From Jannaschia seohaensis (GTDB lineage: Bacteria > Pseudomonadota > Alphaproteobacteria > Rhodobacterales > Rhodobacteraceae): a stretch of 64,000 bases of DNA. Under the pieces are notes generated by a model, which was given only the letters and a program-made list of their open reading frames with translations, ran no database searches and was not told the origin of the DNA. The stretch is taken from assembly GCF_900116765.1 (NCBI RefSeq), contig NZ_UETC01000015.1:1-64000 (forward strand). Direction: 5' to 3'. The translations under genes and the position numbers were made by a program. This document shows, one piece after another, positions 14,642 through 43,075 of the stretch (positions are counted from its first letter, which is position 1; each line of letters begins with the position of its first letter).

Positions 14642-14842
14642 CACGGCCGGTTCGTCACCCTCTCGTTCACCGGCCTCGCCACCGCCAGCCGCGCGCTGGC
14701 CGTCGCGCGATCGGGTTCCATGCGGGTGACCACCGTGGGCGGCAGCACCGAAGCCATCCATATCGCCGCCGGCGTGCCCTTCCCGATCCGGGTCACGCGG
14801 GTCTGGGCGACGGGCGCCACCGGCATCGTGGCGCTCTGGTGA
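14642..14842 (+). pseudogene. Truncated GTA head-spike base gene (ghsA-like remnant)
   Basis: Frame translation gives SRALAVARSGSMRVTTVGGS and then a tail ending WATGATGIVALW before TGA at 14840-14842. Hand alignment to the intact ghsA-like protein at 23534 shows 35 identical positions in about 50, with two residues missing near the end. There is no in-frame ATG before the similarity begins; the 5-prime third has been replaced by the family A repeat at 14581-14632. It keeps the TGATG overlap with the following spike gene, as in the intact locus. A dead second copy of the head-spike base gene. Confidence 0.82.
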
Positions 14843-15589: not shown

Positions 15590-15727
15590 ACCGTTCCGCG
15601 CGGGGCTGGGCGCGGCAAGGCGGCCCCTCCATTGCACGTCATCTCCTCGGGTGCGGCGGGCGTGGCGCTCCGGGGGAGACGTTGGGCGGGGATCTCTCCG
15701 GCCGCCGTCCCGCCCGCGACCCGACGC
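15590..15727. other. Gap between spike remnant and phosphatase
   Basis: About 140 GC-rich bases between the last spike remnant codon and the convergent phosphatase stop. No gene or clear terminator seen. Confidence 0.3.
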
Positions 15728-23533: not shown

Positions 23534-23794
23534 ATGACCGACAAGTTCAGCAAGCACGTCACCGGCCTCGACAGCCCCGCCTCGGCGCTTCAGGCCGTGA
23601 CACCCGATGACGCCACCGACCTGCCGCTGGCCAGCCGCGCGATCGCGGTCGCGCAGGCGGGCGACGTGCGGGTGACGACGGTCGACGGCAGCATCGCGAC
23701 CATCTACGTCGCCGCCGGTATGCCATTCCCGGTCCGGGTCGCGCGGATCTGGGCGACGGGCACCACCGCGACCGGCATCGTGGCGCTGTCCTGA
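23534..23794 (+). CDS. ghsA: GTA-type head-spike base protein (Rcc01079/GhsA family)
   Basis: An 86-residue protein whose pattern matches the spike base family of the Rhodobacter capsulatus gene transfer agent: a short start (MTDKFSKHVTGLDSPASAL), DATDLPLASRAIAVAQAG, VRVTTVDGS, and a conserved end MPFPVRVARIWATGTTATG followed by IVALS. In GTA particles this protein anchors head spikes that bind capsule. Its stop overlaps the fibre gene start (TGATG), indicating coupled synthesis. A broken copy lies at 14642. The main GTA structural cluster is not in this window; in R. capsulatus the spike genes are also in a separate locus. Confidence 0.82.
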   Translation: MTDKFSKHVTGLDSPASALQAVTPDDATDLPLASRAIAVAQAGDVRVTTVDGSIATIYVAAGMPFPVRVARIWATGTTATGIVALS

Positions 23795-26700
23795 TGCCGG
23801 GGCTGGGGCTTGGGCTAGGGGCGGGACGCAGGGCGCCGGTCTCCGTCGTCTTCGGAGCGGCCACCCGCCTCGGCGAGGGGGCGGCGCCCGTGCCCCTGGC
23901 GGATGGCGACTATGGTAACTTCACGGTCTCGGGCGGCGCGATGGCGCCGCGCACGGCCCTGACCGCAGGCGACTACCTGCTGGGGGGCGTGCCGGTCACG
24001 GTCCTGGCCGGCGCCCGCACCGTCGCGACCGCCGCGGAGCTGGAGGCCATCGTCGCCGGGACCGTAACCCCTGCCGCGGGCGAGACGGTCTACCTGCGCG
24101 CCGGCAGCTACGACATGGAGGCGGCCGACTGGTCGGGGCACCCCTCCAACGTCACCTTCGCAGGGGAGGGCCTGCCCGAACTGACCCGCTGGGGCTGGTC
24201 GCAGACCCCGGCCATCGCCAACGTGACGTTGAAGCAGCTTCACATCACCCGCGCCCCCACGATCACCTTCGACAATTTCTGGGGCCCGACCTCCTCCTTC
24301 CAGGCGGCCCTGATCCAGACCGGCGGCCAGTGCGGCAGCCTGACGGGGATCGTGATCGAGGAGTGCCTCTTCGACGGTCAGATGCCCACCGCCGCCGAGG
24401 GCGGCGAGGCGGTCGCCAACGTGCTCGCGGCCGACTTCACCCATTCCGGCATCGCCGATGTCACGCTGCGCCGCTGCCGTTTCACTCGGATGATGTCGGG
24501 GCTGCTGCTGGGCTGTTCCGACTTCCTCGTCGAGGATTGCACCGTCTCGCAGGTTCATGCCGACGCCATCGCGCTCCAGAACGCGCATCAGCACTGCCAG
24601 GATGGCGTGATCCGCAACCTGCATTTCACCGGGCTCGCCGGGAACCCGACCGGCTTTCACAGCGACGTGGTACAGTTCCAGCCCAGCGACAACGACAACT
24701 GGATCCGGCGCATCACCCTCGAGGGGATCACCGCCACGCCCGGCGCGATCCTGCCTTTCTCGGAAGTCAACGGGACGTCGGAGGTCGTCAGCCTGACCAC
24801 GGATACGGTGCTGGACATCACGCACCATGCCCGCGAGTTGCGCGTAGCCCCCGCCGACGGCACGACACTGACCCTGACCCTGCCTTCCGCCGCCGCCTCG
24901 GAGGGGCTGCAATTCTGCATCCGCCGCACCAATGGCGGCACCGGCCAGGTCGTGATCGCCTTCGACGGGGCGGATGGCTGGAGCGGGGGCGTCCCCGCGA
25001 TCGCCGCGGCGGGCAATGCGGCGAGCTTCGTCTCGGACGGCACCGGAACCTGGACGCGGCTCAAGCCGGGCCGCCGCGCCTGGTGGGCCGAGCGCACCGC
25101 CTCGCTGACCCTGGGAGCGGCCGAGGAGGAGATCGTGATCCTCGCCGACGCCTCTGCGGGCGACGTGACGCTGACCCTGCCCGCAACCGGGGCGGCGCAG
25201 TTCAACCTTCAGCGGGTCGACGGCTCGGTCCATGCCGTCACCCTGGCGGCGGGCGCGGGGGATGCGATCTCGCTGCACGGCGCCACGCAAAGCGCCGTCA
25301 CCCTGGCCCAGGGCCAGGGGATCTCGGTCGCGCGCGCGGATGACGGCGACTGGACCGGCACCGAGGCCGGTCCGACCATGCAGGGCGTCTTCGCCAACGC
25401 GCATCCGCGCGGCTTCTACGAGGACATCACAGTGGCGGGCTGCGCGATGATCCTGACCTCGCCGCATGGCCACACCATCGAGCAGAATGTGCCCGGGTCG
25501 CGGGTCTTCGCCAACACCTTCCTGAACGCGGTCTACGCGGAGGCGGACGGCGACGGCGTCATCGGCCCCTTCGAGGCCAACGCGCCCTTCGCCCTGGCGT
25601 CGATCACACTGTCGGGCCCGGACGCGCGCGGCTGGGACAACCTGACGGAGGGGGTGCTGACGCTCTCTGGCGGGGCGCGCGACAAGGGAACGGTCGCCCA
25701 TGCACTGGGCATGGCGGACCGGGCGCCCGCCCCCGTTCCCGCGGGCCGCTCCGGTGTCGCCGCGGCCGCTCTCGCGGCCTCCGGCGCCAAGGGCGCCTCC
25801 GTCTACTGGGATTTCGCCGCGGGCACGGCGCGGGCGGGCCTTCCCGCGCCGCAGATCGTCTCCAGCACACCCGCCCCCGGCGCGGCGGCCGGAACCAGCA
25901 CCGACATCGCCGTTACCTTCGACCAGTTCGTCTCTGCGGGAACCGGCTCGGCCGTGCTGCGAAACGTCACGGATGGGCTCGACGCGGAGACCTTCGACGC
26001 AGCCACGGGGACAGGCGGCGGCGGCGGCAGTCTGACCTTCGCCGACGACGTTCTGACGGTGACGCCGGGAACCGCTCTGACCGACGGCAAGACCTATGCC
26101 CTGCGCCTGGCGGCAGGGGCCGTCCTGGGCCATTACGGCAGCGGACATGCGGGGATCGCTGACGACGCCACGCTGGCCTTCACCGCCGACGCCTCACTGG
26201 CGACCACGTTCACGCGCACGGCGCTGGACGGGACGGCCCATGTCCAGCGCTCGGGCGCGATCAATGGCGGGGTCGCCTATGACCGCTTCACCTTCGGCTT
26301 CCGGGGCCGCTTCGCGACCAACGGACAGAGTTTCTACACGCTGATGGACATCGACCAGTCCAGCGACCTGCCGATCTACGCCCGCAGCACGGGACGGCTC
26401 GATATCGGGCATAACAGCGTGGGCCTCGTGGTGGCGGACGGGGCCATCCCCTTCGGCGTCGACGTCACGGTGCTCTGTACGATGGACATGCGCGAGCCGA
26501 GCGCGGCGACGGGCGCGGCTCTCTATATCAACGGTACGGCGGTCGCCCTGACCGAGAGCGCCTGGACGCAGTTCAACGACTGGTTCCAGCCATCCGCGAC
26601 GACGCGGGTGCTGGGCAGCCAGCATGCCGACCGGGAGATGTCGGGGGCGGTGGACTTCCTATGGTTCGCGCCGGGGGTCGCGCTCGACCTGTCCGACGCT

Positions 26701-26859
26701 GCGGTGCGCGCCAGCTTCGATCCCGCCCAGATCGGCGCGGACGGCTCCGGCCCGATCGGGACGCCGCCGGCGATCTACATGACCGGGGCGGCGGCGGACT
26801 GGCAGGCGGCGACCAACCGCGGCACGCTCACCGGCTGGAGCGCGACGGGCACGTTCTGA
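23794..26859 (+). CDS. ghsB: GTA-type head-spike fibre with beta-helix (GhsB-like)
   Basis: A 1021-residue fibre encoded directly after the spike base and without a signal peptide, as for a particle protein. Residues 1-60 are the likely particle-attachment segment. A right-handed parallel beta-helix follows (about 70-620, repeated short strands such as GIADVTLRRCRF and FLVEDCTVSQV, with an HSD at 289-291). Next come a bacterial Ig-like domain (about 690-800) and a C-terminal LamG-like jelly roll (about 810-960). Such tips bind or cut polysaccharide. The protein is collinear with the secreted protein at 35287 (matching starts, HxD motif and QGVFANA/QGVFSNA segments). The fibre role is inferred from the ghsA overlap and fold. 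Confidence 0.75.
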   Translation: MPGLGLGLGAGRRAPVSVVFGAATRLGEGAAPVPLADGDYGNFTVSGGAMAPRTALTAGDYLLGGVPVTVLAGARTVATAAELEAIVAGTVTPAAGETVYLRAGSYDMEAADWSGHPSNVTFAGEGLPELTRWGWSQTPAIANVTLKQLHITRAPTITFDNFWGPTSSFQAALIQTGGQCGSLTGIVIEECLFDGQMPTAAEGGEAVANVLAADFTHSGIADVTLRRCRFTRMMSGLLLGCSDFLVEDCTVSQVHADAIALQNAHQHCQDGVIRNLHFTGLAGNPTGFHSDVVQFQPSDNDNWIRRITLEGITATPGAILPFSEVNGTSEVVSLTTDTVLDITHHARELRVAPADGTTLTLTLPSAAASEGLQFCIRRTNGGTGQVVIAFDGADGWSGGVPAIAAAGNAASFVSDGTGTWTRLKPGRRAWWAERTASLTLGAAEEEIVILADASAGDVTLTLPATGAAQFNLQRVDGSVHAVTLAAGAGDAISLHGATQSAVTLAQGQGISVARADDGDWTGTEAGPTMQGVFANAHPRGFYEDITVAGCAMILTSPHGHTIEQNVPGSRVFANTFLNAVYAEADGDGVIGPFEANAPFALASITLSGPDARGWDNLTEGVLTLSGGARDKGTVAHALGMADRAPAPVPAGRSGVAAAALAASGAKGASVYWDFAAGTARAGLPAPQIVSSTPAPGAAAGTSTDIAVTFDQFVSAGTGSAVLRNVTDGLDAETFDAATGTGGGGGSLTFADDVLTVTPGTALTDGKTYALRLAAGAVLGHYGSGHAGIADDATLAFTADASLATTFTRTALDGTAHVQRSGAINGGVAYDRFTFGFRGRFATNGQSFYTLMDIDQSSDLPIYARSTGRLDIGHNSVGLVVADGAIPFGVDVTVLCTMDMREPSAATGAALYINGTAVALTESAWTQFNDWFQPSATTRVLGSQHADREMSGAVDFLWFAPGVALDLSDAAVRASFDPAQIGADGSGPIGTPPAIYMTGAAADWQAATNRGTLTGWSATGTF

Positions 26860-29707: not shown

Positions 29708-30913
29708 TCATGCCGTCCCGGCCGACGCGTCCGCGCGCGGGGCGATCTCGTCGAGGACAGCGCCCAGGGCCTCGGCGTAACGCGCCAGCCGCGCCTCGAC
29801 CTGTGCGCGCCCGCGCGCCACATCCCGGGCCAGCGCGGCCCGATCCTCGTAGCCGCGGACGATCTTCGCCACGATCTCGTCGGCGTCCTCGGTCCGGCAG
29901 TCGGCGACGTGGTCGTAGCCCAGCGTGCCGAACAGCCCCGCGAACTTGCGGCTATAGGCCATGGGGATCACCGGCACCCCCGAGGAGAAAGCCGCCACGG
30001 TGGCGTGCATCCGCGCGCCCGTGAAGAAGTCCATCCCGGCGATGTAGCTCTTGGCCTCGGAGGGCGCGCCGAAGAAGGGCGCCACCCGCGCGCCGGGGAA
30101 CTCGGCGGCCAGGGCCTCGCCGACGCGGTGGTCGTCCTCGGTGGCGTTCTGGCGCGACTGGACGTGGCCGACGAGATGCAGCTCGACCTCGGGGCGGGCG
30201 TGGAACCAGCCCAGGAGCGCGCGGATCAGCGCCGGGTAATCCGCCTTGAGCCCGAACTGGTTGGCCCCGGTATAGCCGCCGTTGAACAAAAGCCCCGAGA
30301 CGTTGACGCCGACGCGCACGGGACCGCCCGGCGCGCGCGGGGCGGGCGGGTCGTAGGGCAGGCCCATGGCCACGTCGGTCGCCTCCAGGGCAGACGCGCC
30401 GGGCGCGAGCGCCTCGAGCGCGCGCGAGGACGGGGCGTCGCGCGTCGCCGCCAGCCGGGTCCAGCCGATCGCCCGCCGCGCCAGCATCCGCGCTCCGGCG
30501 CCCTCGAAGGGCCCGATCGTCTGCGGCGCCAGCACCAACGGCACTCCGGCGAGCCGGGTGCGCAGCTTGCTCACCCACAGGTCGGTGAAGCGCTGGCGGC
30601 CGTAGATGTCGGTGAAGCTGTCCCCTGCCCCGATATCGACGATCAGGTCGCAGCGCGCGATCGCAGCGCCCACGGGCCCGCCCGGGCGCAGCAGCGCGCG
30701 GCGGCGGAAGGCGTGGTCCTCGATGTCGGGGGCCTCGAAATACCACGGGCGCGGGTCGCGCCAAGTCAGCAGCAGGAACCGGACCGCGCGGCCCCGCCCG
30801 GCCGCGACCCGGCGAAGGATCTCGACATTCGAGACGGTCAGGGCGCCGATGCCCAGATTGTCGGAGTTCATCGAGTGCCAGAACAGACCGATGGTGAGGG
30901 GGGGCTGGGTCAT
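29708..30913 (-). CDS. Polysaccharide pyruvyl transferase family protein
   Basis: A 401-residue PF04230 protein. It begins LTIGLFWHSMNSDNLGIGAL and has DLIVDIGAGDSFTDIYGRQ, VPLVLAPQTIGPFEGAG, and a late VPVIPMAYSRKFAGLFG. Enzymes of the family add pyruvate ketals to EPS sugars from phosphoenolpyruvate, giving acidic polymers. The start at 30913 gives the family N-terminus. It heads the four-gene glycosyltransferase unit and is divergent from the FrhB-family gene, with a perfect 26-base palindrome in between. Confidence 0.9.
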   Translation of the reverse strand: MTQPPLTIGLFWHSMNSDNLGIGALTVSNVEILRRVAAGRGRAVRFLLLTWRDPRPWYFEAPDIEDHAFRRRALLRPGGPVGAAIARCDLIVDIGAGDSFTDIYGRQRFTDLWVSKLRTRLAGVPLVLAPQTIGPFEGAGARMLARRAIGWTRLAATRDAPSSRALEALAPGASALEATDVAMGLPYDPPAPRAPGGPVRVGVNVSGLLFNGGYTGANQFGLKADYPALIRALLGWFHARPEVELHLVGHVQSRQNATEDDHRVGEALAAEFPGARVAPFFGAPSEAKSYIAGMDFFTGARMHATVAAFSSGVPVIPMAYSRKFAGLFGTLGYDHVADCRTEDADEIVAKIVRGYEDRAALARDVARGRAQVEARLARYAEALGAVLDEIAPRADASAGTA

Positions 30914-31003
30914 CTCGGGCCTTCGCTGCGATGGGGTCGGGGACGATCCCCGTGGCGCGCCGGGCCCTTCTAGCGCATCTTCGGAACGGCGCAATTCACG
31001 CCC

Positions 31004-31029
31004 GGGCGCGCGATTGCAATCGCGCGCCC
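31004..31029. promoter_or_regulatory. Perfect 26-base palindrome between divergent EPS genes
   Basis: The bases from 31004 to 31029 read identically on both strands; the centre is GATTGCAATC with GC-rich arms. The 10-base half GCGCGATTGC also occurs before the Alg14-like gene (16820) and, reversed, before kpsE (56130). A dimeric regulator site for EPS genes is the simplest reading. GCCATC at 31035-31040 may be the plus-strand -10. Confidence 0.55.
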
Positions 31030-31084
31030 CCTGCGCCATCTAGCCTCCGCGTCGCCCCGCGAGCGGCCGCCAGGAGGGATCGCC

Positions 31085-32329
31085 GTGACAGACCGGAGCG
31101 CAAACCGCGCGGGCCGTCCCGCCTCGCCCGTGCTGGCCCGCGTGGCGCGGGGGGAGCTATGCGCGGGCTGTGGCGGCTGCGTGCTGGCGGCGCCGGGCCG
31201 CATCGAGATGCGCATGACGCCGCCGGGGGTGCTGCGCCCGCAGCAGACCGCCCCGCTCGACCCCGCCCAGGACGAGCGGATCGCGCGCATCTGCCCCGGG
31301 TTGGGTCAGCGGGTCTCGGCGCAGGGGCGGCGCGACCACCCGCTCTGGGGGCCCTATCTGGACATGCAGGTCGGCCATGCGACCGATCCCGCGCTGCGCC
31401 ACCGGGCCTCCTCGGGGGGCGGGCTGTCGGCAGTGGCGGCGCATCTGATCGAGACCGGCGCGGTGGACGGGGTGGTGCAGACCGGCGCCGACCCGCGCGT
31501 GGCGGTGGCCAACGTGACCCGGGTCTCGCGCGATGCCGAGGCGGTGGCCGCAGCGGCCGGCTCGCGCTACGCGCCCTCGGCGCCGCTGGCCGGGCTGGGC
31601 CCGCTGCTGGAGGGCGAAGGGCGCTACGCCTTCGTGGGCAAACCCTGCGACGTGGTCGCGTTGCGGGCCCTGGCGCGGGAGGATCCGCGGGTGGCCGCCC
31701 GCTTTCCGGTGGTGCTGTCCTTCTTTTGCGCGGGGGTGCCCGCGCAGGCCGGGGCCGAGGCCGTGCTGGCCCGGCTCGGCGCCGACCCGGACGCGACCGT
31801 GGCGTTCCGCTACCGCGGCCATGGCTGGCCCGGGCGCGCGACCGCACGGCTGGCCGACGGCACCGAACGGTCGATGAGCTACCACGACAGCTGGGGCCGG
31901 ATCCTGTCGCGCCATCTGCAGCCGCGCTGCAAGCTCTGTGCCGACGGGACGGGGGTGGAGGCCGATCTCGTCTTCGCCGACGCCTGGGAGAGCGATGCGA
32001 ACGGCTATCCCCTCTTCGAGGAGCGGGACGGCCAGAGCCTGATCGTGACGCGGACCGAGGCGGGGGCGCGGCTGCTGGAGGCGGCGCGCGCCGCCGGCCG
32101 GATCGAGACGCGGGCCTTCGACCCCGCCGGACTGGCCGCGATCCAGACCGGGCAGTTCAACCGGCGCACGGCGCTGCTGGCGCGGCTGGCCGCGCTGTGG
32201 CTGCTGCGCCGGCCGATCCCGCGCTACCGCGGGCTGCGGCTGGGCGCCGCCGCGCGGCTGGGCCGGCCCTCCGCGCTGGCGCGCAACTTCCTGGGCACAT
32301 TGCGCCGCGGGATCGCGGGCCGGCTCTGA
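31085..32329 (+). CDS. FrhB/FdhB-family (coenzyme F420 hydrogenase beta-like) protein
   Basis: A 414-residue protein. The N-terminal ferredoxin-like cysteines are in GELCAGCGGCVLAAP. The FrhB N- and C-domains follow (RHRASSGGGLSAVAAHLIET, FVGKPCDVVALRALA, and PRCKLCADGTGVEADLVFAD). Members in polysaccharide loci sit with pyruvyl transferases, as here (divergent neighbour); their redox role in EPS modification is not settled. A GTG start at 31085 with an AGGAGGGA site. F420 itself is not implied, since these bacteria do not usually make it. Confidence 0.85.
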   Translation: MTDRSANRAGRPASPVLARVARGELCAGCGGCVLAAPGRIEMRMTPPGVLRPQQTAPLDPAQDERIARICPGLGQRVSAQGRRDHPLWGPYLDMQVGHATDPALRHRASSGGGLSAVAAHLIETGAVDGVVQTGADPRVAVANVTRVSRDAEAVAAAAGSRYAPSAPLAGLGPLLEGEGRYAFVGKPCDVVALRALAREDPRVAARFPVVLSFFCAGVPAQAGAEAVLARLGADPDATVAFRYRGHGWPGRATARLADGTERSMSYHDSWGRILSRHLQPRCKLCADGTGVEADLVFADAWESDANGYPLFEERDGQSLIVTRTEAGARLLEAARAAGRIETRAFDPAGLAAIQTGQFNRRTALLARLAALWLLRRPIPRYRGLRLGAAARLGRPSALARNFLGTLRRGIAGRL

Positions 32330-32426
32330 GCGCGGCCTTCAATCCCGGCCCGGGCGCGTGATAGGGTGGCGCCTGGCCGGGCGGACCGCGGCCACGGCGG
32401 CCGGAGGCCCGGCGGGAAGAGCACCG

Positions 32427-33755
32427 ATGACGCAGCTATCCGACACGGCGCGCCCCGCCCGGACGCGCACCGGCCTCCCGGGGCTGGCCACGGTCGCGGT
32501 CCTGGCGATCTGCACGCCGCTGACGCTGGACCTGGCCGGGCTGGCGCTGAACCCGATCCGCATCGTCCTGCTGACGGTGACGGCGCCGCTGCTGGTGATG
32601 CTGTTCATGGGCCGGCTCGGGCGGTTCGGCGCCATCGATGCGCTGGTGCTGGGATACAGCCTCTGGCAGGTGGTGGCGATCGCGGTCAACAATCCCGAGC
32701 GGGTGGTGCAGTTCTCGGGCTCCAACACGCTCGACTTCCTGGGCGGTTACCTGATCGGCCGCGCGGCGATCCGCTCTCCGGAGGACATGGCGCGCTTCGT
32801 CAAGCTGCTGATGGTGGTGTTGCTGGTGCTGCTGGGGCCCGCCCTGATCGAGTCGCAGACCGGGCGCCCGCTCATCCCCGAGCTTCTGTCGCGGGCGGGC
32901 CTCGCCACGATCGACGATGTGCCCGCCTTGCCCCGGCTGGGGCTGGAGCGGGCGCAGGCGGTCTTCTCCCACCCGATCCATTACGGCCTCTTCGCCTCCT
33001 CGATGCTGGCGCTCGTCTTCGTCGGGCTATCGCATCGCCTCTCGATGACGCGACGGGTGCTGGCGGGGGGGCTGGTGATCGTCTCCACCGTCCTGTCGGT
33101 CTCCAGCGGGGCGCTGCTGCCGCTGGCGATCCAGGTCTTTCTGATCGGCTGGGCGCTGACGGCCCACAGGATCACGCGCCGCTGGCTGGTGCTGGGGGTG
33201 CTGTCGCTGCTGGGCTTCGCGGTGATCGAGCTGCTCTCGGACCGCCCGGCGATCGTGGCGGTGCTGACGCGGCTCGCCTTCAACGCCCACAACGTCTACA
33301 TGCGCACGCTGATCTTCACCCACGGGATGGAGAACATCCTGGCCAACCCGGTCTTCGGGCTGGGGCTGAACGACTGGGTGCGCCCGGCCTTCATGTATAG
33401 CGGAAGCGTCGACAACTTCTGGATCCTCAACGGGATGCGCTACGGCATCCCGGGCGTGGCGATGATCGCGGCGGCGATGGCGGTGGCGATGATCGGCGTG
33501 GGCCGGCGGCGCTTCGCGCCCGGGGGCGAGGCGGCCGCCTGGCAGCTGGCCTGGATGCTCTCCATGATCTCGCTGGTGCTGACGCTGTTCACGGTCCATG
33601 TCTGGGGCGGGGTCTACACCTACCTGATGATCATGATGGCCAGCGGCCAGTTCCTGATCACCTGGGAGGAGGCGCCCGATCGGACGCCCGCCTCCCCCGC
33701 CGACGCGCCCCCGAGGCGCCGCGGTCCCGTCTATACTCGCTTCGGCCCGAACTGA
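32427..33755 (+). CDS. Wzy/O-antigen-ligase-like polymerase
   Basis: A 442-residue membrane protein with about ten to twelve hydrophobic segments and a large periplasmic loop in the middle. The region HNVYMRTLIFTHGMENILA followed by NPVFGLGLNDWVRP is typical of the O-antigen ligase/Wzy family (PF04932-like). It would polymerise undecaprenyl-linked repeat units in the periplasm. The start at 32427 follows GGGAAGAG. It converges on the flippase gene with only 10 bases between the stops. Sequence diversity of this family makes the polymerase call more likely than ligase, from context. Confidence 0.8.
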   Translation: MTQLSDTARPARTRTGLPGLATVAVLAICTPLTLDLAGLALNPIRIVLLTVTAPLLVMLFMGRLGRFGAIDALVLGYSLWQVVAIAVNNPERVVQFSGSNTLDFLGGYLIGRAAIRSPEDMARFVKLLMVVLLVLLGPALIESQTGRPLIPELLSRAGLATIDDVPALPRLGLERAQAVFSHPIHYGLFASSMLALVFVGLSHRLSMTRRVLAGGLVIVSTVLSVSSGALLPLAIQVFLIGWALTAHRITRRWLVLGVLSLLGFAVIELLSDRPAIVAVLTRLAFNAHNVYMRTLIFTHGMENILANPVFGLGLNDWVRPAFMYSGSVDNFWILNGMRYGIPGVAMIAAAMAVAMIGVGRRRFAPGGEAAAWQLAWMLSMISLVLTLFTVHVWGGVYTYLMIMMASGQFLITWEEAPDRTPASPADAPPRRRGPVYTRFGPN

Positions 33756-33765
33756 GGCCGCCGGT

Positions 33766-35202
33766 TCAGCCGACGCGCCCGCCCCGAAGCAGCCGGGCCG
33801 CGATCAGCCCGCGCAGCCGGGGCATCGCCAGCGGCGCCGCCAGCAGCACCGCCGCCAGCAGGGCGTGGCCGGGATCCAGCACCTCGCGCAGCGCGCCTGA
33901 GGGCGGCGCCGCCCACAACTCCCAGGCGGCCAGGACCAGGGCCGCGCCGCAGACCGACAGGGCTCCCGCCAGCCGCACGACCGGCACGCCCTGGCGCCGC
34001 GAGACCAGGATCAGCCCCAGGACCAGCGCCGCCAGCTCGAAGGCGACGCCCGTCCAGGCCAGCCCCGCGACGCCGTATCCGCGCCACAGCACCCACAGCG
34101 CCACCGCCACCCCGACGGCGCGCAGCACCCCGGTGGCCGTCACGTCCCAGGTGTGCCCCGCCGCCAGCGCGGTGGTGGTGCAGAAGGTGCGCGCCGTGCG
34201 CAGCCCCTGCGCCAGCCCCAGGATCACCAGCACCGACGCGCCGGCGGCATAGCCCGGCCCGAACAGCCCCACCAGCAGCGGCGGCCCCAGCACCGCCATC
34301 CCCAGCATCAGCCAGATCCCGGCGCAGACGCTGACCTCGCCGAGCAGCAGCGCTCGCGCCCGGAAGGCCGCGCCGCCGTCGCGCCCGATCGCCTCCCGGT
34401 CGCGGCTGAGCCCCGGCAGGAACATCCCGGAGATGGTGTTGGGCAGCACCCGCGCCGGGGTCACCGCCATCAGGAAGGCGGCCGAGAACCAGCCCAGGGT
34501 GACGAGATCGGTCTGATTGGCCACCAGCATCCGCTCGCCCTGCATCACCGCCATCATCAGCAGGCCATTGATCGCGAGCGGCCCCCCGAAGCCGACGCTG
34601 CTGCGGACATGGCCCCACTCCCAGGCCAGGCCGAAACGGCGCCTGGCCAGCGCATGCGACAGCGCCAGGGCGGCCGCATGCTGCATCACGATCGCCCCGA
34701 GCATCACGCGCCAGTCGGGAAAGATCAGCCAGATCGCCCCCACCGCCAGAAGCGACACCGCCGGAGAGGCCACGTTCATCACCGCCTGGGGCCAAAAATC
34801 CATCCCGCGCTGCACCCGGAAGACGTCGAGATGGATGAACCCCCGCAGCAGCGGCACCAGCGCCAGCACCTGATAGGCCCAGACCAGCTCGGGGGTCTGG
34901 ACGAAGGCGGCATAGGGCCGGGCCAGCGCGAGCATCACCGCCGCCGAGACCAGCCCGCGCACGACCTGCAACAGGTGCAGCGTGTCCTGCAGGCGGGGCT
35001 CGTCGCCCGCCGGGCTCTGGACCAGCAGCTTCTGCACCGAGAAGTTCCCAGCCGTCTCGATCAGCGTCCACAGGATCGCGAAGGTCGCGGCGATCCCGAA
35101 ATCCTCGACCGAGAGCAGGCGCGCCACGAGAATGTTGCGCAAGAACAGCAGCACCGTCGATGAAAGCTCCGAGCCCAGCAGCAGGCCGCCCGCCCGGATC
35201 AT
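33766..35202 (-). CDS. Wzx-type polysaccharide flippase
   Basis: A 478-residue MATE-like/PST transporter with about twelve membrane segments. The start GGLLLGSELSSTVLLFLRNI and NILVARLLSVEDFGIAATFA are typical of the PST family. It flips lipid-linked repeat units across the inner membrane. It is read with the secreted beta-helix gene 84 bases upstream. With Wzz, kinase, Wza, sugar transferase and Wzy it completes a Wzx/Wzy pathway in this window. Confidence 0.88.
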   Translation of the reverse strand: MIRAGGLLLGSELSSTVLLFLRNILVARLLSVEDFGIAATFAILWTLIETAGNFSVQKLLVQSPAGDEPRLQDTLHLLQVVRGLVSAAVMLALARPYAAFVQTPELVWAYQVLALVPLLRGFIHLDVFRVQRGMDFWPQAVMNVASPAVSLLAVGAIWLIFPDWRVMLGAIVMQHAAALALSHALARRRFGLAWEWGHVRSSVGFGGPLAINGLLMMAVMQGERMLVANQTDLVTLGWFSAAFLMAVTPARVLPNTISGMFLPGLSRDREAIGRDGGAAFRARALLLGEVSVCAGIWLMLGMAVLGPPLLVGLFGPGYAAGASVLVILGLAQGLRTARTFCTTTALAAGHTWDVTATGVLRAVGVAVALWVLWRGYGVAGLAWTGVAFELAALVLGLILVSRRQGVPVVRLAGALSVCGAALVLAAWELWAAPPSGALREVLDPGHALLAAVLLAAPLAMPRLRGLIAARLLRGGRVG

Positions 35203-35286: not shown

Positions 35287-37272
35287 TCACCAGTCGCGCA
35301 CCCAGCTCCAGTCGTAGGGGTCCTGATCCGGGGTCGGGCCCACCGCGCCCATCGCGCGCCCGGCCAGCAGCCCGTCGGCGCGCGGCCGGGCCAGCGCCAC
35401 CGCCGCGGAGGCGGTCTCGGGCGAGAAGGCGCCGTCCGGCCCCAGGGCGAACCGCGCCAGGAGGCTGCGTCCGCCGTCGTCATGGCGCAGCCCGGCATCG
35501 TTGCCGGCATCGTCCGCCCCGCCGGAAAAGCCCAGCACGTTGCCGCGCAACTCATGGCCCGCCGCCGCGTCCATCATCGCGAAGCCCGAGTTGAACAGGG
35601 TGTTGAAGCCGTCGCCCAGACCGTTGGGCACGCCGTCCCCGTCGATATCCCCCGGCCAGGGCCGCAGGAACGAGTTGCGCGTCACCGCGATCCCGCGGTC
35701 GTCCGGGTCGCGGAAGCTGACCGCCGCGGGGGCCGTGACCCAGAGAAGGTTGTGGCGCACCGTGATGTCGGAATAGGCCGCCCGGCCCGGCAGCGCGTTG
35801 GAGAAGACGCCCTGGATGTAGGGCAGGGCCGGAAGCGCCTGCCAGTAGGGGCGCCCCGTCCGCGCGTCGGCCTGGCAGCGCAGCAGCCAGGTCTCGCCGG
35901 GGGCGGTCAGCGTCAGCGACGGGACCGGGCCGGACCGGCCGACGCGCAGAACCGCGCCCGGGGGAGGCTCCAACCGGATCGGCCCGGCGCTCGTCGGATC
36001 GCTCTGCACGCCGAAGCGCGGCCCCCGTCCGTCCGCGCAGTCCGGCGCCGGCAGCGTGGCGCGGCCCGGCCCGATCAAGCGGTGCTGCACCCGGTCGTCG
36101 GCCGGCAGGCGGGCGGGCACGGGCCCCGGGGGCGTGCCGCGCAGCCCCGCGCCGAAGCCCGGCTGCAGCAGCCCGTCGCGGCCGGGAAAGGCGATGTTGC
36201 CCTCGATCAGGACATCGGAGACGTCGCAGCTGACATTGCTCGCGGCGAAAAGATGCACGAAGTCGGGATGGATGCGGTTGTTGCTCCAGACATGCGACAT
36301 CACGTTGCGGCGCACCGTCACCCCGCGCGTTTCGGCGCAGTCCCCCCCGCCCAGCAGCTGCGGGGAGAGGCGCAGGAAGTCGCCCCAGCTGTGGCGCATC
36401 CGGTTGTCCTCGACCACGATGCCGGTGCCGCCGACGGCGATGGCGTTGACGATGCCCTCGAAGCGGTTGTCGCGGATGACGACGTCGCGCAGCCGGAGGC
36501 CGCGGATGCCGGAGAGATTGCGCTCCAGCTCGGTCTGCCCCGCGCGCGCCTGCCCGAGCGTGCCGCGGACATGCAGCCGCTCCAGCAGGACCGCGCGGGT
36601 CTCGCCGCGCGAGGCCAGGGTCACCGCCGACCGGATGCCCACGAAGCCCGTCGCGCCGGGGGGCAAGGCGGGCACGTCGTCGAGCAGGAAGTCGAGATCG
36701 CGCAGCACCACGCCGCCATTGGGCCGGTCGGGGTCGGTCGAGCGCATCATCCACATGTTCAGCACCGGCCGCGCCTCCGGGTCGGTCGCCTCGAAGACGA
36801 TCGGCGCGCGGGCCTCGGGGTCGAGGAACGCATCCGGGAAGTCGCGCCCGTCGAGATCCATGTAGCGGCCGGGGTTGAGGCAGACCGTGAGACCGGACTT
36901 CTCGGCCACCGACAGCGCGAGCACGGCGCGCAGCTCCCCGGTGGTGGAGACGCAGCGCGCGCCGGCCCGCAGGATCAGCTCCTGCGCCATGCCGCCCGGG
37001 CCCGTCAGGCGGTGGCGCCCGGGAACCGCGTCGCCCAGGGCGGCGGCGGGGCGCAGCAGACCGCCGCGCGCGGCGAAAACGCCGCCGCCGGCGCGGTAGG
37101 TGCCATCGGGCAGAGGGGTCGGGACCGCCGCCTCGCCGGCGAGGTTGCGCAGCCCGAAGACCGCCGCGCCGGGCCCGGTATCGCCGGCCCGCGTCGACCC
37201 GGACGCCGCGAGCACCGCCGCGACCGACAGCGCGGGCAGCACGGCTCCGGCCCATCTCAGAAACCCACGCAT
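35287..37272 (-). CDS. Secreted beta-helix protein related to the spike fibre
   Basis: A 661-residue exported protein with a signal peptide (about residues 1-30, LPALSVAAVLAASGSTRA). It forms a right-handed parallel beta-helix (for example IRGLRLRDVVIRDNRFEG and AIAVGGTGIVVEDNRM). A His-x-Asp pair lies at 335-337 (RIHPDFVHLF). Beta-helix proteins in EPS operons are usually lyases, hydrolases or epimerases acting on the polymer. Segment after segment parallels the GTA-type fibre at 23794 (VFG..AGEAAVPTPLPDGTY, LRAGARCVSTTGELRAVL, IQGVFSNALPGRAAYSDITV). The fibre lacks a signal peptide and this protein has one. The start at 37272 gives the signal peptide. Function inferred. Confidence 0.8.
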   Translation of the reverse strand: MRGFLRWAGAVLPALSVAAVLAASGSTRAGDTGPGAAVFGLRNLAGEAAVPTPLPDGTYRAGGGVFAARGGLLRPAAALGDAVPGRHRLTGPGGMAQELILRAGARCVSTTGELRAVLALSVAEKSGLTVCLNPGRYMDLDGRDFPDAFLDPEARAPIVFEATDPEARPVLNMWMMRSTDPDRPNGGVVLRDLDFLLDDVPALPPGATGFVGIRSAVTLASRGETRAVLLERLHVRGTLGQARAGQTELERNLSGIRGLRLRDVVIRDNRFEGIVNAIAVGGTGIVVEDNRMRHSWGDFLRLSPQLLGGGDCAETRGVTVRRNVMSHVWSNNRIHPDFVHLFAASNVSCDVSDVLIEGNIAFPGRDGLLQPGFGAGLRGTPPGPVPARLPADDRVQHRLIGPGRATLPAPDCADGRGPRFGVQSDPTSAGPIRLEPPPGAVLRVGRSGPVPSLTLTAPGETWLLRCQADARTGRPYWQALPALPYIQGVFSNALPGRAAYSDITVRHNLLWVTAPAAVSFRDPDDRGIAVTRNSFLRPWPGDIDGDGVPNGLGDGFNTLFNSGFAMMDAAAGHELRGNVLGFSGGADDAGNDAGLRHDDGGRSLLARFALGPDGAFSPETASAAVALARPRADGLLAGRAMGAVGPTPDQDPYDWSWVRDW

Positions 37273-38045
37273 CGCACGCTCCCACCCGATGCGATGGACG
37301 GCGCCGCATCCGCCGTGGCGGTCCGACGGGGCTGAATGCGGGGATGGCACCGCGGTCTCTTCAAGCGGTCTCCCGGCGGCCGTGATCGAGACCGAGGCCG
37401 ATCGAGGCGGCGCCGGGCTCCAGGTCGGCCCCCCTTGATCTCCTCGCAGCGATGGGTCGCCGTGATCTCGCGCCAGAAGACATCGACGCTGATAGAGGGA
37501 TCGTAGGGGGTCGGAAGGCTATCGTGAAGCGCGATCAGCCCCTCCGGCGAGGCGAGCGGCGCGTATCGCTCGAAGTCCATCCTGACGCCTTCGTGGGAAT
37601 GATCTCCGTCGATCATCAGGAAGTCGATCTCGCGGCCGCCGAGGCTCTTCCCGACCTGCGCGAGGGGCGCGGCGTCATGGGAATTTCCGCGCAGCGGTTC
37701 CAGCCGCTGCCCCGGATTCGCGAAACGCCGGTAGGCCGCCTCCTTCCAGCGCGGATAGCCTCCGCCGTTTCGTCCATACGGCATGTCGAGGCCGATGATC
37801 AGCGCATCGTCCGAAACGACGCGGCGGAACAGGAACAGGCTGCCGCCCTTGGCCGTGGCGATCTCGAGGACGCCCCGCGGTTTCCGGGCCGCCAGCATCT
37901 CCAGCGTCCTGTCCAGCTCCTTGATGGCCTTGCGATCGCTGAGGTTCTTTCCCTGGTGCCAGGCCCATTTCAAGGCCGAGACGCGCCTCGGATGCGCGCC
38001 CGCATTGTCCATCGCTCGGAGTTTCCGCTTCAGAGAATGAATCAT
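37257..38045 (-). CDS. Class I SAM-dependent methyltransferase (CmcI-like), probable frameshift near the end
   Basis: As sequenced, 262 residues. The fold is that of the CmcI/cephalosporin-hydroxylase-like methyltransferases: RGVLEIATAKGGSLFLFRRV, IIGLDMPYGRNGGGYP, then the metal-type motif EIDFLMIDGDHSHEGVRMDF and LIALHDSLPTPYDPS. After residue about 205 the frame becomes Arg/Pro-rich and runs into the next gene. Dropping one G from the six-G run at 37434-37429 restores ADLEPGAASIGLGLDHGRRE and ends at TGA 37363-37361. A real frameshift or a sequencing error is equally possible. It may methylate an EPS sugar; it is first in a unit with the beta-helix and flippase genes. Confidence 0.78.
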   Translation of the reverse strand: MIHSLKRKLRAMDNAGAHPRRVSALKWAWHQGKNLSDRKAIKELDRTLEMLAARKPRGVLEIATAKGGSLFLFRRVVSDDALIIGLDMPYGRNGGGYPRWKEAAYRRFANPGQRLEPLRGNSHDAAPLAQVGKSLGGREIDFLMIDGDHSHEGVRMDFERYAPLASPEGLIALHDSLPTPYDPSISVDVFWREITATHRCEEIKGGRPGARRRLDRPRSRSRPPGDRLKRPRCHPRIQPRRTATADAAPSIASGGSVRCVGF

Positions 38046-39184: not shown

Positions 39185-40720
39185 ATGACTTTCTCCTTCG
39201 CTTTCCTCGCGCCCCTGGTCCTGCTGGCGGTCGCCGCGCTTTCGGGGGGCCGCGCGGGGCGGCGCCCCGGCGGGCCCGCCCGCTGGTCCGAGGCGGCGGC
39301 GGCCGCGGCCGGCGCCCTGGTGGTGCTGGGGCTGGTGCAGCTGGCGGTCTCGGGGCCTGCGGCGGCCTTCGGGCTGAAGGCGGGGCCGGTGGGGCTGACC
39401 ATGGCGCTGCTGGTGTCGTTCATCGGCTGGGTGGTGATGCGCTACAGCCGCAGTTACCTGGATGGCGAAGCGCGCGAGGGCCGGTTCCACGGGCTGATGC
39501 TGGCCACGCTGGCGGCGATCCTGGTCTTCGCGCTGTCCGGCGATGTCTGGCTTCTGCTGCTCTCGGCCATTGCGGTGGGCCTGACGCTGCGGCGGCTTTT
39601 GCTGTTCTACCCGGAGCGGGCGGAGGCGCGGCGCGCGGCGACCAAGTTCGCGCTGGTCTGGCATGGCGGCGACGCGGCGCTGTTCGGGGCGGCGGTTCTC
39701 TTGACGTCGCGCTTCGGCACCGGGGCGCTGGACCTGCTGGCGGCGCGCGCCACCCAGGAGGGGCTGGGCGTGGCGGGGCATCTCGCCATGGGGCTCGTCG
39801 TGCTGGCGGCGCTGCTCAAGACGGCGGCCTTCCCGCTCCATGGCTGGCTGACCGAGGTGATGGAGGCGCCCACCCCGGTCTCGGCGCTGCTCCATGCGGG
39901 GATCATCAACTCGGGCGGCGTGCTTTTGATCCAGGCCTCGGATCTGGTGCAGCTCAGCCCCGGCGCGATGGCGGCGCTGGTGATGGCGGGGGGGCTGACG
40001 GCGCTGTTCGGGGCCGCGGTGATGCTGGCGCAGAGCGCGGTGAAGACGGCGCTGGCCTGGTCCACGGTGGCGCAGATGGGCTTCATGCTGCTGCAATGCG
40101 GGCTGGGGCTCTGGGCGCTGGCGCTGCTGCATATCCTGGCGCATTCGCTCTATAAGGCGCATGCCTTCCTGTCCTCGGGCGGCGCCGTCGCCGCCGTGGC
40201 GCAGATCCGGCGGCCCGGGCCGGTGGCGGTGCCCGATCTGGGGGCGGTGCTGCGCTCCTTCGGGCTGGCGCTGGCGATCTATGCGGGCATCGCGCTGATC
40301 TTCACCCTGGTTCTGGGGCCCAAGACGGCGCAGGCGCTGGCGCTCGGCGCGATGCTGATCTTCGGGGTTGCCTATCTGGTGGCCCAGGGCCTGGCCGACC
40401 TCGCCCCGGCGGAGCTGACGCGCCGCACGGTGACGGCCTCGCTGGCCGCCGCGGTCGCTTATTTCTCCTTCCAGGCAGTCGCGCAGAAGATCTGGGGGCC
40501 GGGCCTGCCGCCCGCCCCGGTGCCCGGCGCGCTGGAATGGGCGCTGATCGTGCTGGCGATCCTGTCCTTCGGGGCGGTGGCGCTGGCGCAGGCGCTGTTC
40601 CCGCTCTGGGCGCATCACCCGGCGGTGGCGGGGCTGCGCGTGCATCTCGCCAACGGCCTGTATCTCAACGCGCTGCTCGACCGCGCCATCGGCGGATTCC
40701 GCGCCGCGCGGGAGGGCTGA
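39185..40720 (+). CDS. dabB: DabB, NuoL-like membrane subunit of an inorganic-carbon pump
   Basis: A 511-residue membrane protein of the proton-translocating NADH dehydrogenase subunit family, with about fourteen hydrophobic segments. The hallmark PLHGWLTEVMEAPTPVSALL followed by HAGIINSGGVLLIQ includes the proton-path lysine/histidine region of NuoL/MrpA-type subunits. There are no other Nuo genes nearby, and a DUF2309 gene follows after 3 bases. That pair defines the DAB system, where DabB couples an ion gradient to CO2 hydration by DabA. Good fit in length. Confidence 0.9.
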   Translation: MTFSFAFLAPLVLLAVAALSGGRAGRRPGGPARWSEAAAAAAGALVVLGLVQLAVSGPAAAFGLKAGPVGLTMALLVSFIGWVVMRYSRSYLDGEAREGRFHGLMLATLAAILVFALSGDVWLLLLSAIAVGLTLRRLLLFYPERAEARRAATKFALVWHGGDAALFGAAVLLTSRFGTGALDLLAARATQEGLGVAGHLAMGLVVLAALLKTAAFPLHGWLTEVMEAPTPVSALLHAGIINSGGVLLIQASDLVQLSPGAMAALVMAGGLTALFGAAVMLAQSAVKTALAWSTVAQMGFMLLQCGLGLWALALLHILAHSLYKAHAFLSSGGAVAAVAQIRRPGPVAVPDLGAVLRSFGLALAIYAGIALIFTLVLGPKTAQALALGAMLIFGVAYLVAQGLADLAPAELTRRTVTASLAAAVAYFSFQAVAQKIWGPGLPPAPVPGALEWALIVLAILSFGAVALAQALFPLWAHHPAVAGLRVHLANGLYLNALLDRAIGGFRAAREG

Positions 40721-40723
40721 GCC

Positions 40724-43075
40724 ATGGAGACCTCTATGACCGATCCGATCCTCGCGGCCGCCGAGGCCGCCGCCCGCCGCATCCCCCCCGCCTTCCCGCT
40801 GGAGGCCACGGTGGCGGTGAACCCCTTCCTGGGCCAGACCGGCGAGGATCTGGCCACCGCCTCGGCCCGGCTGACCCGGGTGGCGGGGGTGCGCGCGACC
40901 CGGACCATGGCCGAATATGCCGCGCTGATCGATGACGGCACGATCGCCGAGGAGGACCTCTCCGCCGCCCTGGCCGCCGCGCCCGCGGCCGCGCGGCCCG
41001 CCGATGTGGCCGCCCTGCGCGCCCTGGCCCGCACCCCGCCCGAGGGCGACCCGCCCACGCCCCTGCCCAGCGTGGCGGACCTGGCCGCCCGGGCCACCGG
41101 CACCGACTGGCCCTCGGTCATCGAGAAGAGCTTCGGCCTCTGGGCCGCGGGCTATTTCGACCGGGGTCAGGCGCTGTGGATGCCCAAACCCGGCGAGAGC
41201 GCCTTCGACGCCTGGCGCGGCTGGGCCGTCCATGACCTGACGCCCGAGATCGCGGGGCTCCGGGGCTTCTGCGAGCATGTCCTGCGCGCCCCCGACACCG
41301 TCGAGCGCGCAACCTTGCGCGCCGCCGAGGCCCTGGGCCTGACCGGGGAGGCGGCCGAGACGGTCTTCCACCGGCTGCTGATGGAGCTGGGCGGCTGGGC
41401 GCAGCACGCGCGCTGGCTGCTCTGGGAGGCGGAGCTGGAGGGCCGGACCTCCGACGCGCTGGCCGGGCTGCTGGCGATCCGCCTGATCTGGGAAGAGGCG
41501 CTGCTGGCCCATGTGCCGGGGCTCGCGCAGGACTGGGCCGCGACGGTGGCCGCCCATGCCGCGCCGGTCGTCCCCGGCCCCCGGGACGCGGCCCGCGCCA
41601 TCCTGCAAGACGCCGCCGAGCGCGCGCATCAGCGCGGGCTGGTCGCCGCGCTGGACGGCCCCGCGCCCACGGGGGAGCGGCCGAAGCTCCAGGCGGCCTT
41701 CTGCATCGACGTGCGCTCCGAGGTGTTCCGCCGGGCGCTGGAGGCGGTGGATCCCGGCATCGAGACGATCGGCTTCGCGGGCTTCTTCGGCCTGCCGATC
41801 TCACACAAGGCGCGCGGCTCGGACGTGGCCGAGGCGCATCTGCCGGTGCTGCTGACCCCCGGCTTGGAGACCACCAGCCACGGCGACGAGGCCGCCGAGC
41901 AGGATGCCCGCATCGCCGCCCGCGCCACCCGCGCCTGGGGCCGGTTCCGGCAGGCGGCGGTCTCCTCCTTCGCCTTCGTCGAGTCGGCGGGCCCGCTCTA
42001 TGCGGTGAAGCTGGTGCGCGACGCGCTCGGGATGGAGCATGCCGCCGCCCCGTCGCCCGCCCCGCAGGTCGTGGGCGGGCTTTCCGCCAAGGCCCGCGCC
42101 GACACCGCCGCCGCCGTCCTCAAGGCCATGAGCCTGACGAAGGGCCATGGCGAGATCGTGCTGCTTCTGGGCCATGGCGCGCAGGTGGCCAACAACCCCC
42201 ATGAGAGCGCCTATCATTGCGGCGCCTGCGGCGGGCATACGGGCGAGGTCTCGGCCCGGGTGCTGGCGCAGCTTCTCAACGACCCGGAGGCGCGGGCGGG
42301 GCTGGCCGCGCGCGGGGTGGATCTGGCCCCCGACACGCTCTTCGTGGCCGGGCTGCACGACACGACCACGGACGCGGTCACGCTCTATGACGTGGACACG
42401 GGCTCGGACGCCTTGCGCCGGGTGCGGGACTGGCTGACCCAGGCGGGCCGCGCCGCCCGGACCGAGCGGGCGGCGACCTTGCCCGGCGCGACCCCCGCCA
42501 CCGTGGCCGAACGCGCGCGCGACTGGGCGCAGGTGCGGCCCGAATGGGGGCTGGCGGGCTGCGCGGCCTTCATCGCCGCGCCGCGGACGGCGACCGCCGG
42601 GCGCGATCTGGGCGGGCGCGCCTTCCTGCACAGCTACGACTGGCGGGCCGATGACGGCTTCGGCACGCTGGAGCTGATCCTGACGGCGCCGGTGGTCGTG
42701 GCGAGCTGGATCAGCCTGCAATATTACGGCTCCTCGGTGGCGCCCGAGGCCTTCGGCGGCGGCAACAAGCTGATCCACAACGTGGTCGGCGGCATCGGCG
42801 TGATCGAGGGCAATACCGGGCGCCTGCGCCCCGGCCTGCCCTGGCAGGCGGTGCATGACGGCGCGGGCCTGGTCCACGACCCGCTGCGCCTGACGGTGAT
42901 GATCGAAGCCCCGCGGGAGGCGATCTCGGACGTGCTGGAGCGCCACCCGGAGGTGCAGGCGCTGTTCGACAATGGCTGGCTGCACCTGATGGTTCTGGAG
43001 GAAGGCCGGGTCGCGGCCCGCTACCGCCCCGGCCGCATCTGGGAAGGGCAGGAGATGGAGCGGGCCGCCGCCTGA
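40724..43075 (+). CDS. dabA: DabA, carbonic-anhydrase-like subunit of an inorganic-carbon pump (DUF2309)
   Basis: A 783-residue protein of UPF0753/DUF2309. The zinc site resembles that of beta-carbonic anhydrases: Cys327 and Asp329 in AFCIDVRSEVFRR, His484 in LLGHGAQVANNPHES and Cys499 in SAYHCGACGGHTGE. With DabB it forms an energy-driven CO2-to-bicarbonate trap in the cytosol. The start ATG at 40724 is 3 bases after the dabB stop; MTDPIL at 40736 is an alternative. Use in this organism could be carbon fixation or supply of bicarbonate for carboxylases; no rubisco gene is in the window. Confidence 0.94.
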   Translation: METSMTDPILAAAEAAARRIPPAFPLEATVAVNPFLGQTGEDLATASARLTRVAGVRATRTMAEYAALIDDGTIAEEDLSAALAAAPAAARPADVAALRALARTPPEGDPPTPLPSVADLAARATGTDWPSVIEKSFGLWAAGYFDRGQALWMPKPGESAFDAWRGWAVHDLTPEIAGLRGFCEHVLRAPDTVERATLRAAEALGLTGEAAETVFHRLLMELGGWAQHARWLLWEAELEGRTSDALAGLLAIRLIWEEALLAHVPGLAQDWAATVAAHAAPVVPGPRDAARAILQDAAERAHQRGLVAALDGPAPTGERPKLQAAFCIDVRSEVFRRALEAVDPGIETIGFAGFFGLPISHKARGSDVAEAHLPVLLTPGLETTSHGDEAAEQDARIAARATRAWGRFRQAAVSSFAFVESAGPLYAVKLVRDALGMEHAAAPSPAPQVVGGLSAKARADTAAAVLKAMSLTKGHGEIVLLLGHGAQVANNPHESAYHCGACGGHTGEVSARVLAQLLNDPEARAGLAARGVDLAPDTLFVAGLHDTTTDAVTLYDVDTGSDALRRVRDWLTQAGRAARTERAATLPGATPATVAERARDWAQVRPEWGLAGCAAFIAAPRTATAGRDLGGRAFLHSYDWRADDGFGTLELILTAPVVVASWISLQYYGSSVAPEAFGGGNKLIHNVVGGIGVIEGNTGRLRPGLPWQAVHDGAGLVHDPLRLTVMIEAPREAISDVLERHPEVQALFDNGWLHLMVLEEGRVAARYRPGRIWEGQEMERAAA

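Follow-up and report, generated by a model that had tools for sequence, protein, structure and literature searches.

A stretch of 64,000 nucleotides from Jannaschia seohaensis (contig NZ_UETC01000015.1; hereafter the window) encodes two beta-helix proteins that are homologous and collinear. The first is a protein of 661 amino acids that is predicted to be exported and whose gene, at 35287-37272, stands among exopolysaccharide (EPS) genes. The second, of 1021 amino acids at 23794-26859, is by its anatomy the head-spike fibre of a gene transfer agent (GTA). Apart from the exported group, a set of three proteins described below, no sequence in the comparison is closer to the exported protein than the fibre, which also joins other proteins that bear the same neck domain. 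Judged from sequence, one polysaccharide-acting module probably serves both as an exported EPS protein and as the receptor-binding body of the GTA.

The exported protein and the head-spike fibre

35287..37272, minus strand: predicted exported beta-helix protein, 661 aa; open reading frame (ORF) with a purine-rich GGTGGGAG a few bases 5' of the ATG
37186..37272, minus strand: Sec-type signal peptide, residues 1-29, called by inspection without a predictor; n-region charge +2, then AVLPALSVAAVL, with a 12-residue hydropathy maximum of 2.40 at residue 10
23534..23794, plus strand: GTA head-spike base protein, 86 aa; NF048002 at E 1.7e-31, head spike base 6tb9 of the Rhodobacter capsulatus GTA (RcGTA) at E 1.2e-12
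23794..26859, plus strand: GTA head-spike fibre by anatomy, 1021 aa; docking peptide, neck, beta-helix, two inserts, Big_5 (residues 685-797) and C-terminal region
23794..23823, plus strand: docking-type peptide MPGLGLGLGA, from comparison by eye with the RcGTA head fibre N-terminus as given in PMC7296036

The ORF, strand and coordinates of the exported protein, first given in a preliminary description of the window, were verified. BLASTP with composition-adjusted statistics aligned its residues 34-364 with residues 15-317 of the fibre (26% identity, E 5e-12) and residues 477-593 with 520-635 (35% identity, E 3e-8). A tblastn search of its own whole genome at E up to 1 returned two matches, itself and the fibre (E 2.7e-7). 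The Smith-Waterman score of the pair is 207, compared to a mean of 47.6 and a maximum of 67 for 200 composition-preserving shuffles (z 24.9). The exported protein was also compared with 31 neck-less beta-helix relatives, where it scores 43-107, and with six further fibres or fibre-like proteins that bear the neck, where it scores 51-92. The score with the fibre is thus about twice that with any of the 37 relatives outside the exported group. The fibre itself scores 74-188 with the six neck-bearing proteins and 44-93 with the neck-less ones. The segment pairs quoted in the preliminary description all lie within the pairwise alignment in the same order, and the refuting result named there, a score no better than those among unrelated beta-helix proteins, did not occur in this set. 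A recent local duplication is ruled out by the identity of 26-35%; moreover, profile A2 matched neither of the genes in any of 19 further genomes from the genus (E 1e-5).

The exported protein has six cysteines. Its relative from Dinoroseobacter shibae keeps all six and the fibre matches none of them, as expected when a disulphide-bearing exported protein is set against one that folds in the cytoplasm. The exported protein lacks both the docking peptide and the adjacent spike base of an RcGTA-type head-spike fibre; its start is signal-like, and its neighbours are EPS genes.

The fibre is assigned to a GTA head spike because the spike base gene overlaps it, its docking peptide is RcGTA-like, and the genome has GTA_TIM genes. 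The spike base belongs to the RCAP_Rcc01079 family (NF048002 score 108.4, cut-off 28), and its stop codon overlaps the fibre start (TGATG). The fibre N-terminus, MPGLGLGLG, alternates Leu and Gly and by eye resembles the docking sequence of RcGTA in that source; no signal peptide of the exported protein's kind is present. The two GTA_TIM (megatron) genes match at E 3e-158 and 1.6e-142 and were the sole GTA marker searched beyond the spike genes. From this anatomy, the fibre is presumably carried by GTA particles. The GTA_TIM genes lie at C15 193366 and C22 65359 of this genome (G000) and may mark either a pair of GTA-type clusters or one GTA alongside a related prophage.

Neck, candidate active site and inserted domain

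36958..37161, minus strand: neck domain of the exported protein, residues 38-105, from profile comparison
23893..24105, plus strand: neck domain of the fibre, residues 34-104, 53.5% identical to gp38 of EBPR podovirus 2
36379..36381, minus strand: D298, candidate catalytic residue, in 36/36 aligned sequences
36262..36270, minus strand: H335-P-D337 motif, H and D in 36/36
24562..24564, plus strand: D257 of the fibre, counterpart of D298 in the alignment
24658..24666, plus strand: H289-S-D291 of the fibre, from the alignment
35818..36102, minus strand: inserted domain of the exported protein, residues 391-485, from the alignment
24787..25377, plus strand: two tandem inserted domains of the fibre, residues 332-426 and 436-528, from the alignment

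The neck is a domain of about 70 residues, and that of the fibre matches gp38 over 71 residues at E 7e-7. The main sample covered the family with 394 genomes, roughly one for each genus. Profile searches scored few candidates per genome, so that absences are no proof. Profile A3 found a match in 49 of these genomes at the cut-off of E 1e-5. Among the matches listed, those beginning at model position 1-4 belong to six proteins: both proteins of the window, the exported protein of D. shibae, and one protein each in genomes G103, G140 and G275. All remaining places begin at position 39 or beyond, thus without a full neck. The G103 protein starts with MIGISLG and directly follows a spike base. The G140 protein starts with MKAGLSL and lies within an EPS cluster, about 2.4 kb from a spike base on the same strand. 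In a local search, the G231 fibre, which adjoins a spike base, matched the neck from position 27 only. The neck is also found in the fibre of viral contig IMGVR_UViG_3300043403_000054, where the next gene is amidase-like by eye, and in gp38, whose start MISLSIGIGLT is docking-like by eye. Outside the window, the neck therefore occurs in phage or GTA fibres, in the D. shibae exported protein and in one protein of unassigned role (G275).

The G275 protein (L046 6625-12414) stands alone, with a neck, a beta-helix and, by eye, FN3-like repeats, and is possibly a fibre remnant; the gene after it resembles a DNA adenine methylase by eye. In gp38 (L152 5605-7713), a segment near residues 20-75 is like the G234 fibre and a C-terminal segment is like the G103 fibre (by eye), which may reflect module exchange between phage and GTA spikes.

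The HxD pair, at residues 335-337 and 289-291, had been offered as a tie between the two proteins. The positions are right, but the pair is excluded as a specific link. D298, H335 and D337 (fibre D257, H289 and D291) are each invariant in 36 aligned sequences of very low identity; four of 40 unique helix sequences, partial or weak, had been excluded from this count and from the helix tree below. The HxD pair is probably the active-site mark of the family rather than a sign of special kinship. The residue that follows it is Q in the family and H in all three exported proteins.

The inserted domain has the same position in both proteins, between the HxD and QG motifs. It is present once each in the exported protein and its relatives from D. 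shibae and Roseobacter sp. SK209-2-6, and in two tandem copies in the fibre. The insert profile gave no match beyond these carriers among 4947 open frames of the fetched loci. The SK209-2-6 insert aligns to the second fibre copy with z 11.4, and the insert of the exported protein to that of SK209-2-6 with z 4.3. Homology of the inserts is thus transitive through SK209-2-6, not direct.

The exported group consists here of the 661-aa protein, DSHI_RS20715 of D. shibae and the SK209-2-6 protein, none of which has a Pfam family match. DSHI_RS20715 is encoded on plasmid pDSHI04, where its EPS cluster includes genes for a flippase and a pyruvyl transferase and an FrhB-like gene. The group is rare, with tblastn finding it in three of the 394 genomes. 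At E 1e-5, profile A2 matched one of 20 genomes of the genus and one of 12 from the genus to which SK209-2-6 belongs; at E 1e-8 in 292 genomes of the order, it returned two known members and one weak partial match (the samples overlap). The genome-contig scan with the exported protein alone gave nothing, and its repeat with profile A2 gave SK209-2-6 alone. Nothing useful came from the plasmid search with the fibre, the phage search with the exported protein, the viral-contig scans with gp38 and with the fibre, or the comparison of the two bodies with PHROGs, NCBIfam and PDB sequences. The SK209-2-6 protein was itself considered as a spike fibre and rejected: the small ORF before it is spike-base-like by position but unlike in sequence, and the protein start is signal-like.

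Function and direction of descent

Both proteins are plausibly polysaccharide-acting beta-helices, with no finer assignment, because of the invariant D/H/D residues, the weak fold matches to lyases and tailspikes, and the EPS locus. The best PDB fold matches of the exported-protein model are the Vibrio cholerae RbmB lyase (E 9.2e-5), the HK620 tailspike (1.9e-4) and Agl-KA/GH87 enzymes. Among PDB sequences, a profile built from 12 rows of the wider family extends to alginate lyases (best 1.1e-7), with PL6 AlyGC at 5.4e-6 over profile positions 9-99 only. PF13229 (Beta_helix) is above its cut-off of 25.9 in six of nine relatives scanned, two of which have weak chondroitinase B matches. Neither gp38 nor any of the three exported-group proteins has a match to it, and the fibre remains below the cut-off at 13.3 bits.

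In the proposed mechanism, the module of the fibre would hang via the docking peptide from the spike-base pentamer on the GTA capsid and would bind, perhaps cut, the exopolysaccharide or capsule of kin cells on first contact. The exported protein would have a Sec signal peptide in place of the docking peptide, and it has cysteines that are missing from the fibre. Encoded with a Wzx flippase, it would act in the periplasm or outside the cell on the same polymer class, most likely as a lyase or hydrolase that uses D298, H335 and D337 for trimming, release or turnover. The polymer identity, catalysis and one common polymer for both proteins are inferred.

In the helix-only tree of 36 rows, the neck-bearing and exported-group members stand apart from the neck-less relatives (92/90), and the three exported proteins are united (96/90). 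The tree constrained to keep the fibre with the exported group has a log-likelihood 2.68 above the free tree (approximately unbiased test, p-AU 0.66). The tree permits, without proving, an origin of the exported proteins from within the fibres. Its rooting gives no decision on the direction of descent.

The preliminary description had further suggested that a polysaccharide-acting enzyme was recruited as a spike fibre, or the reverse. Shared ancestry stands, on the sequence, the neck, the insert in the same place and the one EPS region. For the direction, an identity of 26-35% leaves no recent pair, and the wider family divides into fibres of phages and GTAs and, opposite them, exported and other beta-helix proteins. 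Descent from fibre to exported protein, the opposite of the first option, is slightly favoured. In its full form this account is possible but tentative: a virion fibre would have become a cell-exported EPS enzyme by exchanging the docking peptide for a Sec signal, gaining disulphide cysteines and joining a Wzx/Wzy cluster, and the bacterium and its GTA would now use sister tools on the same polymer. The G275 neck protein, only possibly a fibre, makes it slightly less likely.

Several results weigh against the shared-module explanation. The G275 protein, of 1929 amino acids, lacks a docking-type start, and no spike base lies near it. The SK209-2-6 relative lacks all six cysteines despite a signal-like start, and the neck profile gives no match to it. 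The insert of the exported protein has no direct match to the fibre copies (z 0.8 and 0.2); that of D. shibae reaches z 1.7 and 1.4 with the fibre copies and z 1.1 with SK209-2-6. The insert profile finds no match in the viral contig fibre or gp38, and the first fibre insert has none in phages. The free helix tree sets the fibre outside the exported and neck-less proteins, in an unsupported position (69/3). Structure prediction, which the preliminary description had proposed, did return beta-helix fold matches, but the models, built from four-row alignments, are poor overall, with a mean predicted local distance difference test score (pLDDT) of 52.9 and 48.9 and ten-residue helix blocks of 70-88. 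The fold matches of the exported protein have low TM-scores, and the best match of the fibre core is PL6 AlyGC at 7.6e-3, with none under E 1e-3.

Descent in the other direction, from a host enzyme to the fibre, is somewhat less likely. An exported EPS beta-helix enzyme with neck and insert would have been captured by the spike cassette, where a docking peptide was added, as a body directed at the host's own polymer. The neck-less relatives are commoner, with some match in 49 of the 394 genomes, and cluster with spike bases: in nine of 29 genomes, drawn from those with a spike base among the matches listed, one lies within 15 kb, where 0.31 is expected. This count left out the three exported-group proteins and the G231 fibre, and the other neck proteins were not entered. 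In addition, the four congeners examined have three unlike spike bodies (G408 and G409 are alike), as repeated capture predicts, and the free helix tree, though unsupported, has the corresponding shape. The full neck, however, is present in only six proteins among the matches listed, and also in a phage record, a viral contig and the fibres of other genera, and thus looks like a virion part; neck-bearing exported proteins number two in the sample.

It is unlikely that the two proteins are non-catalytic polysaccharide binders, in which case the exported one would be a lectin-like protein of the matrix or periplasm. The head fibres of RcGTA are reported to bind capsule (PMC7296036, PMC10218006), and the change from Q to H after HxD in the exported proteins could alter the site; conservation of D298, H335 and D337 across the whole alignment would be unusual for a mere scaffold. 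Convergent or trivial similarity of composition-driven beta-helices in one genome, to which the G+C of 0.71-0.73 around the genes, the Ala/Gly-rich proteins and the family-wide HxD might point, is refuted by the shuffle and relative scores, the composition-adjusted E value and the same-place insert, and its probability is negligible.

Fibre and exported protein both resemble known systems. The RcGTA head spike (Rcc01079 base and Rcc01080 fibre; GhsA and GhsB; PMC7296036, PMC10218006, PMC8601537) shares the spike-base family, the adjacent base and fibre genes and the Leu/Gly docking peptide. Rcc01080 has 325 amino acids, whereas the fibre here has 1021 and a beta-helix body, and the window, unlike RcGTA, has an exported relative within the same EPS region. 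A capsular polysaccharide (CPS) cluster, rcc01081-01086, next to the spike genes by locus number, is already published (PMC10218006), and the RcGTA spike genes are reported to be related to phage genes (PMC8601537). The RcGTA tailspike TspA (Rcc02623), likened here by description, is a GTA-borne beta-helix with an inserted domain that acts on biofilm matrix, and is a precedent for a matrix-degrading beta-helix enzyme on a GTA (PMC13420450). TspA is a baseplate tailspike from another locus with a PF12218-like cap; neither window protein has a Pfam match to such a cap at E up to 1 (no alignment to TspA itself). RbmB, the V. cholerae lyase of Vibrio polysaccharide (VPS), is a beta-helix with a predicted signal peptide from a biofilm gene cluster, an example of a biofilm-cluster beta-helix protein that can be a lyase for its own matrix (PMC11637428). 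A phmmer search against PDB sequences at E up to 1 gave no match between RbmB and the exported protein, and the likeness is an analogy only. Neither RbmB nor TspA turned up here as a relative by sequence. Gp38 and the IMGVR_UViG_3300043403_000054 fibre share the neck, the beta-helix with HxD and, by eye, a docking-like start with the fibre here but lack the inserted domain; the three small ORFs before gp38 do not match NF048002. To PF13229 and alginate-lyase-like beta-helix proteins, the likeness lies in the PF13229 matches of relatives and in the alginate lyases reached by the family profile; the window proteins themselves are not above the PF13229 cut-off. In the open-access literature, nothing was found that describes an exported protein of an EPS cluster as kin to a GTA or phage spike fibre, or that places GTA spikes at EPS loci outside R. 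capsulatus; Westbye 2016 and Hynes 2016, met only as citations, may hold prior mention of either.

If the two are sister proteins within an EPS locus, particle specificity and polymer type could be inherited or exchanged jointly. GTAs need to find kin cells, and joint inheritance, if true, would explain GTA delivery confined to EPS-compatible relatives. The pair gives an opportunity to test for exchange of virion fibres with the polysaccharide enzymes of bacteria, and all members of the exported group are candidate EPS-acting enzymes.

Spike cassettes and neighbouring genes

GTA head-spike cassettes often sit in EPS loci, with varying bodies. Spike-base genes are found in 138 of the 394 genomes, and 64 spike loci were inspected. 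Forty unselected loci were taken from the 42 best-scoring places, with the window's own genome and one other excluded; 20 were hand-picked, mostly for beta-helix matches or several spike bases, and four came from congeners. An EPS-type gene, defined as similar to the EPS genes of the window and within about 10 kb, is near the spike in 21/40, 9/20 and 3/4 of these, respectively (33/64 in total), and at least two such ORFs are present at 22 of the 64. For 20 control regions, hand-chosen from long contigs, the fair contrast is with spike loci on the same contigs: 6/20 spike loci compared to 0/20 controls (Fisher p 0.02). By eye, the fibre bodies differ strongly between genera and between congeners.

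 Congeners G408 and G409 (L019, L020) have a spike base and a 100-aa fibre-like ORF, followed by a protein of 469 or 487 aa and then a signal-like protein of 656 or 659 aa, PKD-like and beta-helix-like by eye, which would be another exported protein right inside a spike cassette. Two further congener cassettes (L017 5698-8448 and L018 9418-10788) hold, by eye, a protein of 916 aa that resembles glycoside hydrolases and a fibre that resembles SGNH hydrolases, suggesting several enzyme classes on GTA spikes. In G067 (L101 8301-9548), a spike base has immediately upstream of it, on the opposite strand, a protein of 415 aa that carries PF13229 and a signal-like N-terminus, in an EPS cluster of the window's type with flippase, FrhB-like, pyruvyl transferase and Wzy-like genes. 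In D. shibae (L136 9828-10133), simple gene prediction placed no fibre-like gene after the spike base on its strand within the D. shibae stretch covered.

The remaining features of the window are as follows.

14672..14842, plus strand: second, decayed spike-base copy (profile positions 27-85), then a broken fibre-like reading frame
29708..33755, mixed strands: EPS genes between fibre and exported protein; pyruvyl transferase (minus), FrhB-like (plus), Wzy-like (plus, under the Pfam cut-off)
33766..35202, minus strand: Wzx-type flippase, 84 bp downstream of the exported-protein gene on the same strand
37257..38045, minus strand: Methyltransf_24 ORF, as listed, with a 16-base overlap with the exported-protein start

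The stretch down to 26.9 kb is occupied by Wzy-like, FrhB-like, pyruvyl transferase and glycosyltransferase genes. The decayed spike-base copy at 14672, the shared inserted domain, the third invariant Asp (298/257) and the identity of the spike base are additions to the preliminary description. At 14672-15600, the partial spike base is followed by a fibre-like start, MLGMGLPP, and a broken frame, and would represent a decayed head-spike cassette in the same EPS region. The tail of the Methyltransf_24 ORF has a less coding-like composition. At 39185-43075, a DabA gene (PF10070) and the preceding proton-antiporter-type gene, an inorganic carbon transporter pair, break up the EPS region.

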